A stretch of DNA of 35,047 nt, from NCBI GenBank assembly GCA_019239875.1, contig JAFAZI010000179.1, positions 1 to 35,047 of the forward strand, read 5' to 3'. This document shows positions 18,081-25,207 of the stretch, piece after piece. How positions within the stretch are numbered: position 1 is the first letter of the stretch; every line of letters begins with the position of its first letter. A program made the position numbers and the translations under genes. The DNA is from Frankiaceae bacterium. Lineage in GTDB: Bacteria > Actinomycetota > Actinomycetes > JAFAQI01. The notes beneath the pieces were generated by a model. That model was not told the origin of the DNA. It made no database searches and saw only the letters and a list, made by a program, of their open reading frames with translations.

Positions 18081-18104
18081 TGCGCACTAAGGTGCGTAGC
18101 GCCA
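18081..18104 (+). promoter_or_regulatory. Hairpin holding the ribosome-binding site of the first fluC gene
   Basis: TGCGCAC (18081-18087) pairs with GTGCGTA (18092-18098) through seven pairs, one of them G-U, around the loop TAAG. The only Shine-Dalgarno-like sequence before ATG 18104, AAGGTG (18089-18094), lies in the loop and the right arm. The stem would limit initiation unless opened. No fluoride riboswitch consensus was found upstream. Confidence 0.4.
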
Positions 18105-18529
18105 TGTCCGAACCCGTCGACCCTGAGCCGGGACCGCTGTCAGCGGGCTTCATCGCCTTGGCGTTCCTTGGCGGGGTGGCCGGCACCGCCGCGCGCTACG
18201 GACTGGGCCGCTGGCTGCCGACGGGCTCGGGCTTCCCGTGGGGCACCTTCACCGCGAACCTGCTCGGATCGTTCATCCTCGGTGCGCTGCTCCAGCAGCT
18301 GAGTCGCCGCGGCGCCGACACCGGTGGTCGGCACCGGATCCGGCTGCTTGTCGGCACCGGCTTCTGTGGCGGCCTCACCACCTACAGCACATATGCGGTC
18401 GAGACCGACCTGCTGTTCCGCGACCACCGGGCGGGGCTGGCACTCGTCTATCTCCTTGCCACGGTCTGGGCCGGGCTGATCGTCGTCGCGGCAGGCATCG
18501 CCGCGAGCGACCGCGTGCTCCGGCCGTGA
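18104..18529 (+). CDS. crcB: Fluoride channel subunit FluC/CrcB, copy 1
   Basis: A 141-residue protein with four membrane helices of the Fluc family, which exports fluoride passively. Family motifs are GGVAGTAARYGLGRW, GTFTANLLGSFILG (pore Asn) and GTGFCGGLTTYSTYAVE, where the usual TTFSTF is TTYSTY. The start ATG 18104 has AAGGTG upstream; the first 20 residues are a hydrophilic Pro/Glu-rich extension. The second copy overlaps its stop codon (GTGA at 18526-18529). Paired fluC genes in Gram-positive bacteria typically encode two halves of a heterodimeric channel. Confidence 0.94.
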   Translation: MSEPVDPEPGPLSAGFIALAFLGGVAGTAARYGLGRWLPTGSGFPWGTFTANLLGSFILGALLQQLSRRGADTGGRHRIRLLVGTGFCGGLTTYSTYAVETDLLFRDHRAGLALVYLLATVWAGLIVVAAGIAASDRVLRP

Positions 18530-18891
18530 TCACGGTCTGGATCGCGCTGGCGGGCGGTGCAGGGGCGGGTGTCCGGTACGTCATCGACTCGCTCGTGACC
18601 GCCAGGTGGCGACATGACTTCCCGCTCGGCACTCTGCTGATCAACGTCAGCGGCTCGCTGCTTCTCGGCGTCCTCACCGGGCTCGTCATCGCGCACGATG
18701 CCTCGAGCAGTTGGACGAAGGTGGCCGGCACGGGGTTCTGCGGCGGCTACACGACGTTCAGTGCCGCGACGGTCGAGTCCATCGCGTTGGCCTACCGCGG
18801 CCGACTGCTCGCGTCATACCTGAACACCGTCGGTTCGGTCGGCCTGACGATCTTCGCCGCCGCCGTCGGGTTGTGGCTCACCGGAGCCTGA
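18526..18891 (+). CDS. crcB: Fluoride channel subunit FluC/CrcB, copy 2
   Basis: A 121-residue partner of the preceding subunit, with AGGAGAGVRYVIDSL, GTLLINVSGSLLLGVLTG and GTGFCGGYTTFSAATVES. The start GTG 18526 overlaps the previous stop, implying coupled translation and balanced amounts of the two subunits. It is shorter than copy 1 because it lacks the N-terminal extension. Its signature loop (TTFSAAT) differs from TTYSTYA in copy 1, which fits two non-identical halves. Confidence 0.94.
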   Translation: MITVWIALAGGAGAGVRYVIDSLVTARWRHDFPLGTLLINVSGSLLLGVLTGLVIAHDASSSWTKVAGTGFCGGYTTFSAATVESIALAYRGRLLASYLNTVGSVGLTIFAAAVGLWLTGA

Positions 18892-22915: not shown

Positions 22916-22983
22916 ATCGCCGAAGCGTCTCAAATCGTTGGTTCGAGGCGCATCAAACCAACCATTCGCGCCGCTTTGGCGAT
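22916..22983. terminator. 68-bp imperfect palindrome between convergent genes
   Basis: Outer arms ATCGCCGAAGCG (22916-22927) and CGCTTTGGCGAT (22972-22983) match at 11 of 12 positions. Inner arms AATCGTTGGTT (22933-22943) and AACCAACCATT (22956-22966) match at 10 of 11. The element lies between the GNAT stop and the gamma carbonic anhydrase stop, where a two-way terminator is expected. It lacks a clear T-run. Its size and nested layout resemble the palindromes at 24154 and 25145, with little shared sequence beyond a GCCGA box and a central AAATCG. Confidence 0.6.
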
Positions 22984-24135: not shown

Positions 24136-24153
24136 CCCCTACCGCCCCCCGCC

Positions 24154-24208
24154 GAGCCGCGCGAAGTGGGCCTAAATCGTCGACATTTGGGCCCGTTTCG
24201 CGTGGCTC
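24154..24208. repeat. Long palindrome, upstream copy, before the DUF559-like gene
   Basis: The left half reads GAGCCGCGCGAAGTGGGCCT then AAATCG, and the right half is its imperfect complement (CATTTGGGCCC, then GTTTCGCG, TGGCTC). Mismatches fall at isolated positions: a G/A after GAGCC, GT against AC after GCGAA, and T/C after GGGCC. It lies between the DinB stop (24135) and the DUF559-like start. The left-arm pattern GCCGAGCCnnGCGAAnnGGGCCTAAA recurs in the same orientation at 25147, directly after the gene. Confidence 0.75.
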
Positions 24209-24264
24209 GCTGCGCTGTGGACGGCGTGCAGCGCGATTTCGCTAGGCGCGGCATCCTGCCGCTC

Positions 24265-25170
24265 GTGCCAGCGAGTCAACCCATCCCAGCCGAGTTACGC
24301 CGCGCGCCGTTCACGACTAGCCGCGCCGCGCAGCTGGGGGTCTCGCGATACGTCGTGCGCGGGCCGGAGTTCCGGAAATTGTTTCGCGGAGTGTGGGCAC
24401 ATGTGGACCTGCCGGACACGCTGGCCCACCGGCTCGCGGCAGTGCGTCTGGTCCTTCCGGACGGCGCGTTCATCTGCGGCCTGACGGCCGCGTGGGTCTA
24501 CGGCATCGACGTGCAGGATCGCCGAGCCGACCTGGTGTGGATGGGGACCCGCACTGGACGCCGACTCAGAGACCGAGCGGGCTGCATGTCGCGTGAGATC
24601 ACGGTTGCCGCTGGTGACCTGCAAGTCCTCGACGGGGCTTACATCACGACGCCGTTGCGAACCGTCTTCGACTGCGGCCGATGGCTCTCCCTCGTCGAGG
24701 GAACCGTGGTGGCGGACGCCCTGTCACATGCCGGCCTGGTCACCGCCGAAGAACTGACGGCGTACGCCGCATCGCATCGAGGCCTTCGCGGCATTCGGAC
24801 CCTCGACCGCGTGATCGACCTGATGGAACCGAAAGCTGAATCACCCATGGAGACGCGGGTCCGTCTGTTGCTTGTCCTGTCGGGCCTGCCCAGACCTGAG
24901 GCGCAGATCGTGCTCGAAGACGACTTCGGGTTCGCCGCCCGCGGCGACATGGGATACCGCGCCGAGAAGCTGATGATCGAGTACGACGGCTCCGGCCACT
25001 GGGGCCAGCTCGCGGCGGACGAGCGCCGGCGATCACGGATGCGTGATCTCGGCTGGGAGGTGATCGTCGTAACCCGGGACGACTACTACAAATGGCCGGA
25101 CGAGCTCGTTGCTCGCGTCGCCGCGAAACTTCGCGAGCGTCGCGCGCCGAGCCCTGCGAACCGGGCCTAA
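24265..25170 (+). CDS. DUF559/Vsr-like nuclease-fold protein with AbiEi-type winged helix
   Basis: A 301-residue protein. The N-terminal part (about 10-60) looks like the winged helix of AbiEi-type proteins (FTTSRAAQLGVSRYVVRGPEFRKLF, RGVWAH). A middle region includes ITTPLRTVFDCGRWLS. The C-terminal 100 residues have the DUF559 PD-(D/E)xK layout: Glu196 in SPMETRVR, Asp228 in ARGDMGY, Glu239 in LMIEYDG, then H and DERRRSRMRDLGWEVIVVT. Whether it cuts DNA is unknown; relatives are labelled type IV toxin-antitoxin or endonuclease-like. The start is uncertain: GTG 24265 is chosen, GTG 24217 is possible; neither has a good Shine-Dalgarno. Copies of a long palindrome stand on both sides, the second overlapping the last codons. 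Confidence 0.8.
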   Translation: MPASQPIPAELRRAPFTTSRAAQLGVSRYVVRGPEFRKLFRGVWAHVDLPDTLAHRLAAVRLVLPDGAFICGLTAAWVYGIDVQDRRADLVWMGTRTGRRLRDRAGCMSREITVAAGDLQVLDGAYITTPLRTVFDCGRWLSLVEGTVVADALSHAGLVTAEELTAYAASHRGLRGIRTLDRVIDLMEPKAESPMETRVRLLLVLSGLPRPEAQIVLEDDFGFAARGDMGYRAEKLMIEYDGSGHWGQLAADERRRSRMRDLGWEVIVVTRDDYYKWPDELVARVAAKLRERRAPSPANRA

Positions 25171-25207
25171 ACCGGCCCTTCGAAGGCCCGGTTCGCGCGG
25201 CTCGGCG
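25145..25207. repeat. Long palindrome, downstream copy, overlapping the DUF559-like stop
   Basis: The left arm (25145-25169, CGCCGAGCCCTGCGAACCGG and on) and the right arm (25183-25207) match at all but two or three of 25 positions, around a 13-bp centre. The TAA stop of the nuclease-fold gene (25168-25170) lies at the end of the left arm, so the last seven or so residues (SPANRA region) are encoded by the repeat. The core GCCGAGCCnnGCGAAnnGGGCCTAAA is shared with 24152. It could serve as a terminator for both this gene and the convergent DUF1272 gene. Confidence 0.75.

Follow-up and report, generated by a model that had tools for sequence, protein, structure and literature searches.

The window analysed here, 35,047 nucleotides that make up the whole of contig C204 in the 4.15-Mb draft genome of a Frankiaceae bacterium whose closest named relatives are Frankiaceae/Frankiales MAGs, contains a unit of about 1.07 kb in which a nuclease gene stands between two copies of one long palindrome. 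Gene and palindromes probably form a system that resembles the REPIN/RAYT pairs but is built on an unrelated enzyme, with putative nicking or cutting and subsequent host repair spreading the palindromes. We give about even chances to the wider proposal that such units represent a hitherto unknown class of selfish element with a wide distribution among Actinomycetota and Dormibacterota. In this class, an AbiEi-EDxHD nuclease would spread its own REPIN-like palindromes with no transposase of a known type taking part, and protein and palindrome would continuously evolve new specificities independent of one another. If true, the way of life of REP/RAYT systems would have evolved twice, the second time around an enzyme of different origin, and a function could be given to the common, uncharacterised DUF559/AbiEi-like family of Actinomycetota, whose genes number up to 12 per genome. 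Such units would offer numerous naturally matched sets of a nuclease and its long DNA site (about 60 bp), which would make the AbiEi-type specificity code and the transposase-free spread of repeats directly testable.

The unit in the window and its protein

The features of interest in the window are as follows.

24151–24211, no strand: upstream 61-bp palindrome, GCCGAGCC-n2-GCGAA-n2-GGGCC, a 17-bp spacer and the inverted arm; member of a genome family of 21
24265–25170, plus strand: AbiEi-EDxHD/Vsr nuclease gene (DUF559/MTES_1575), 301 aa, GTG start at 24265
25146–25206, no strand: downstream 61-bp palindrome, which takes in the 3' end of the nuclease gene with its final codons and TAA stop (25168–25170)
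22917–22982, no strand: copy of a different, 66-bp palindrome family, that of the C162 paralogue (54 genome sites), profile E 1.2e-16

The first-pass annotation had described a gene between two copies of one palindrome of 55–63 bp, with a shared left-arm pattern in the same orientation and with the downstream copy supplying the end of the gene. All of this agrees with the window sequence. The pattern GCCGAGCCnnGCGAAnnGGGCCTAAA occurs at 24151 and 25146 in identical orientation. Each occurrence forms the left arm of an imperfect palindrome 61 bp long, and in both palindromes this arm reads GCCGAGCC-nn-GCGAA-nn-GGGCCTAAA. The final codons and the TAA stop of the gene lie inside the second palindrome. 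As single strands, both fold far better than shuffled sequences (z −6.9 for the upstream and z −5.2 for the downstream copy). A third palindrome, which the same annotation had placed at 22916–22983, is real as well (z −3.2), but its family is a different one, namely that of the C162 paralogue.

The GTG at 24265 was taken as the start codon from the alignment of homologues; further in-frame GTG codons are found at 24166, 24217 and 24226. The AlphaFold2 model of the protein, with 37 homologues in the alignment, has a pLDDT of 95. Model comparison identifies residues 3–187 as an AbiEi fold (6y8q, Z 11.6, 174 residues aligned), and the high rmsd of 9.3 is probably due to a different orientation of the two domains. 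Residues 193–294 adopt a nuclease fold, which superposes over 94 residues, with an rmsd of 2.2, on the catalytic domain of I-Bth0305I, a homing endonuclease (3r3p, Z 11.9), and which also matches Vsr (1cw0, Z 9.8). The Vsr-like C-terminus proposed earlier is thus upheld by Pfam DUF559 and by the predicted structure, and the model shows a protein in which an AbiEi-type DNA-binding fold is joined to a nuclease fold of the EDxHD homing/Vsr type. Its only Pfam matches are DUF559, MTES_1575, AbiEi_1 and AbiEi_4, and the PADLOC AbiEi profiles match it with E 2e-10. An HUH/Y1 tyrosine transposase was found neither by Pfam nor among the fold matches, which cover nearly the whole model. Residues E196, D228, H245 and D252, whose individual catalytic roles are assigned putatively, are retained in 35–37 of the 37 proteins. 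Together with dN/dS values of 0.14–0.43 in orthologue pairs, this retention indicates that the nuclease is under purifying selection. No AbiEii toxin gene lies next to the window gene, the neighbours being a mycothiol S-transferase (MST)/DinB gene, a DUF1272 gene and a dCTP deaminase (DCD) gene. Elsewhere in the window, a tandem pair of CrcB-family genes (Pfam PF02537) occupies 18104–18891.

Palindrome families in this genome and in other bacteria

Across the whole genome, the arm pattern yields 47 matches at up to two mismatches, compared with 5 for the reversed control, and a profile search for the element finds 21 sites of the window family. The arm-to-arm distance is exactly 39 bp in all 21 copies. 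The conserved blocks CGAGCC, GCGAA and GGG, with their complements, are separated by variable and often non-pairing positions, and the blocks themselves include positions without pairing. Arm complementarity is no better within one copy (0.78) than between copies (0.80). Fixed spacing, conservation in blocks and the lack of better pairing within copies are the signature of a protein-binding site of fixed geometry and not of an RNA stem. There is no T tract, and a search of Rfam returned only a chance match as its best hit (E 0.39). As to the suggestion that copies might cluster at DUF559 genes, the two flanking copies do recur at homologues, but most members of the window family do not lie near DUF559 genes, which is the expected pattern for a dispersed non-autonomous repeat. 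At some loci, palindromes of this family cluster with many copies of a second repeat, approximately GCGCATGGCCCATCGGTG, which is absent from the window (L045 2296–2875 on contig C51, L039 1237–1396 on C3 and L043 507–700 on C9).

The genome encodes four further homologues of the window protein. The paralogue on contig C36 (57% identical) is bracketed by palindromes of its own, beginning with TGAYCTTGACGCTTGT and present at about 8 sites in all; that on C162 (38% identical) is likewise bracketed by its own 66-bp palindromes, beginning with TCGCCMAACCGTCTCGAATCGTTGG and present at 54 sites. One genome therefore holds three gene/palindrome families, each with a single gene and dispersed copies. 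No clear palindromes were found at the two most distant homologues, on C6 and C9.

In the C162 family, information content drops sharply beyond 66 bp, which marks these 66 bp as the unit of dispersal. The spacing is fixed and the arms are 91–93% alike, while the 10-bp loops are only 37% alike, compared with 30% expected from composition. Two accounts are possible: selection or conversion acts site by site to preserve the arms, or each new copy receives a new loop; a simple recent copy-and-paste process is disfavoured, since the loop should then have been copied too. The copies are intergenic and mostly follow directly after stop codons. According to a simple codon-bias gene finder, 16 lie between convergent and 21 between tandem genes and none of the 37 between divergent ones; for comparison, 6 of 36 neighbouring gene pairs in the window are divergent. 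The genome has 54 copies, but not one was found in any of 39 relatives, among them 11 of the same bacterial family, so the expansion is recent on that scale. Insertion into the loops of pre-existing hairpins had been suspected by eye and was discarded, as flank complementarity is 7.73, against 7.81 in shuffled partners.

The arrangement recurs in other bacteria. In another genus of the same family (G001), the DUF559 orthologue is flanked by two recognisable relatives of the window palindrome. In further genera the palindrome sequences are unrelated, yet nearly every intact homologue has one palindrome before its start and one at or just past its stop. Flanking palindromes were not detectable at the DUF559 genes of L124 and L128; the L124 homologue (G004:C36:23300–27800, 1796–2667) is split into two overlapping frames and is perhaps a decaying unit.

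A survey covered 80 loci from named genomes that range from Frankiaceae to Pseudonocardia, Phytohabitans, Actinoplanes and Dormibacterota. The collection was scanned with a closer set of homologues, the alignment of 37 diverse proteins being too variable, and a palindrome was counted when at least 20 of 25 arm positions paired. An upstream palindrome is present in 30 of 78 loci (38%) and a downstream one in 27 of 77 (35%), compared in each case with 23 of 4004 background windows (0.6%) taken elsewhere in the same loci. The corresponding Fisher p-values of about 1e-40 and 1e-35 are overstated because some of the 80 loci are closely related; the effect size is nonetheless large. Units measure 1.05–1.27 kb (median 1.07 kb, n = 30). 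Good palindromes stand at both ends of 30 units. In 28 of these, the left and right copies agree at 14 or more of 16 bases, compared with 5 of 360 mismatched pairings; the orientation of the two copies is direct in 11 units, inverted in 6 and undecidable in 13.

Palindrome and protein also diverge jointly. All units whose proteins are more than 80% identical have a 16-base word common to their palindromes, and below 60% identity the palindromes are mostly unrelated (Mantel r 0.33, 0 of 2000 permutations). Cognate matching makes recognition of the palindrome by its protein a well-supported, if still putative, property of the system. A pair of orthologous units in Phytohabitans (L212/L337 and L223/L338) occupies the same place and encodes proteins that are 78% identical, with clearly different palindromes; a recent change of specificity is possible there.

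Independent replication comes from Tsukamurella tyrosinosolvens and Arthrobacter sp. StoSoilB13, which carry such units. Their palindromes are scattered on their own replicons and occur in no other of the 72,556 records of the plasmid collection. The Tsukamurella units were not accepted as plasmid-borne, since the records carry gatA/gatC and purB and so are apparently pieces of the chromosome. The PLSDB "plasmids" concerned, from T. tyrosinosolvens NCTC13231 (L409 NZ_LR134454, L410 NZ_LR134451 and L411 NZ_LR134464), bear gatA/gatC and purB/purD and look chromosomal.

Mobility and possible modes of action

Orthologous units hold the same place in syntenic pairs, which suggests that the gene is mostly inherited vertically. 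At the level of the dispersed repeats, one copy cognate to its unit (L240, 4136–4200) has no counterpart in the orthologous intergenic regions of L244 and L245. Orthologues of Dcd occur in three relatives without the window unit, where the remaining neighbours differ too; since relatives do not share the neighbourhood, no clean empty site was obtained for the window copies. Nor did the comparison of Phytohabitans maris with P. suffuscus provide a clean single-element site for the DUF559-cognate families. Several indels of 40–126 bp between orthologous loci were considered as palindrome insertions and set aside as coding or non-palindromic.

P. maris (G060; e.g. L306–L335) also harbours a 50-bp palindrome, GATCGAnGCTCCCCTCA-n16-inverse, in about 240 copies; it is absent from P. 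suffuscus, and three clean empty sites exist for it (contig C12, 8117, 85262 and 202778). None of the detected DUF559 genes carries this palindrome, so its insertion polymorphism is not counted for the DUF559 system.

Palindromes also bracket other segments. In a relative (G003, C5:24500–28500; L132, 946–1923), two near-identical palindromes 918 bp apart surround a Phd/RelE-like toxin–antitoxin pair, named by eye, and a 3' fragment of a tRNA, as if the segment had entered between the palindromes or by recombination at them. In Pseudonocardia sp. N23, two cognate palindromes enclose a 2-kb gene segment that follows the DUF559 unit (L214, 10848–12937); at the place of this segment, P. sulfidoxydans has a single palindrome (L221, 10845–10906).

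Of the roles suggested in the first-pass annotation, which were target, mobile unit and self-regulatory site, the data favour two putative ones for the palindromes, recognition site and mobile unit. The two 22-bp inverted arms of the 61-bp site would fit a dimer of the AbiEi–nuclease fusion. The AbiEi parts of two protein molecules would bind the two inverted arms of about 22 bp, in the manner of AbiEi on its 23-bp inverted repeats, which would bring both nuclease domains to the 17-bp spacer or to the ends of the arms. There the nuclease may nick or cut the palindrome, or a hairpin formed by it in single-stranded DNA at the replication fork, and host repair of the damage would copy the palindrome to new places. 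In this way the small palindromes, themselves non-autonomous, would multiply in the company of a nuclease gene that is passed on mostly by vertical inheritance, and the flanking copies may also allow the protein to autoregulate its gene. The unlike loops of the C162 family, the failure to find a clean empty site for the window copies and the DUF559 genes without detectable palindromes (C6, C9, L124 and L128) speak against this reading.

Two other explanations are unlikely, to a similar degree. According to the first, a dimeric EDxHD homing endonuclease cleaves at the palindrome, and repair of the double-strand break copies the gene into unoccupied palindromes; the solo palindromes would mainly be empty targets. 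The closest fold to the nuclease domain is indeed that of the homing endonuclease I-Bth0305I. This enzyme forms a dimer on its target, which at nearly 60 bp (PMC3943268) has the size of the palindrome, and the gene of the window lies exactly between two target copies. However, each family has a single gene despite 6 to 54 available targets, cutting 20 to 50 sites of the own chromosome would be costly, and the arrival of palindromes at new, non-homologous sites is left unexplained.

According to the second, the protein is an AbiEi-like, DNA-binding autoregulator with an anti-invader nuclease. The flanking palindromes would be its operators, and the scattered copies would have been spread by another transposase or be kept as chromosome-organising sites that co-evolve with the protein. 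The AbiEi fold and profile matches suit this explanation, as do the autoregulation of AbiEi via inverted repeats (PMC7319586) and the conserved arms, random loops and fixed spacing, which resemble selected protein-binding sites. On the other hand, a further cognate copy is usually found at the 3' end of the gene, where it has no use as an operator; the C162 family never occurs in divergent (promoter) regions; and entire families are present in one genus and missing from its sister genera.

That the palindromes are ordinary bidirectional terminators, beside the gene by chance, is very improbable and was rejected, since their stable hairpins and their sites just past stop codons and between convergent genes are outweighed by the conserved non-pairing positions, the window arms pairing no better within than between copies, the missing T tract, the gene-specific identity of the two flanking copies and their co-variation with the protein.

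Comparison with known systems

The pairing with REP/RAYT proposed in the first-pass annotation is strongly supported as far as the architecture is concerned, with one gene per family, cognate flanks, dispersed intergenic copies, co-variation, and occurrence in many genera and in a second phylum; it fails for the enzyme, which is not of the HUH/Y1 type. REP/REPIN sequences are dispersed extragenic copies with two conserved inverted arms at a fixed distance and a poorly conserved spacer (PMC3116915). The families described here share with them a single-copy gene per repeat family flanked by cognate palindromes, dispersed extragenic inverted doublets at fixed spacing, several independent families per genome, joint divergence of repeat and gene, and mainly vertical inheritance. 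They differ in having an AbiEi-EDxHD nuclease instead of an HUH/Y1 tyrosine transposase (TnpA_REP) and one complete doublet on each side of the gene at a nearly constant distance. A GTAG (or CGTC) tetranucleotide at one end is a criterion for REP/RAYT (PMC3733652), and this tag is absent from the consensus ends, GCCGAGCC/GGCTCGGC and TCGCC/GGCGA. With neither an HUH/Y1 transposase in the gene nor a GTAG tag, the system would work like REP/RAYT without being a member of it. A literature search, with most subscription journals and preprints outside its scope, found no prior link of DUF559, EDxHD or AbiEi to dispersed palindromes; given that no earlier description was found, the system is, judged by its architecture, putatively new in kind.

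The likeness to the EDxHD homing endonuclease I-Bth0305I and to Vsr concerns the C-terminal nuclease fold with its conserved acidic and histidine residues and, for I-Bth0305I, a target length near 60 bp. In contrast to these enzymes, the window protein carries an AbiEi-type DNA-binding domain instead of phage intron modules, and its gene lies outside any intron or intein, has its own palindrome on both sides and has its presumed target dispersed in the same genome.

Residues 3–187 have their two-domain fold in common with the AbiEi antitoxins of type IV toxin–antitoxin systems (S. agalactiae AbiEi, M. tuberculosis Rv2827c). The DNA site of AbiEi is a pair of 23-bp inverted repeats with 3 bp between them (PMC7319586), comparable to the two 22-bp arms here. 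The present system differs from these antitoxins in the missing adjacent AbiEii gene, in the nuclease fusion and in repeats that stand at both ends of the gene and are also dispersed.

MITEs and insertion sequences with terminal inverted repeats resemble it in that small non-autonomous repeats are related to the ends of a one-gene element. Here, however, each end is a palindrome complete in itself, dispersal is that of solo palindromes, and the gene encodes neither a DDE nor an HUH transposase.
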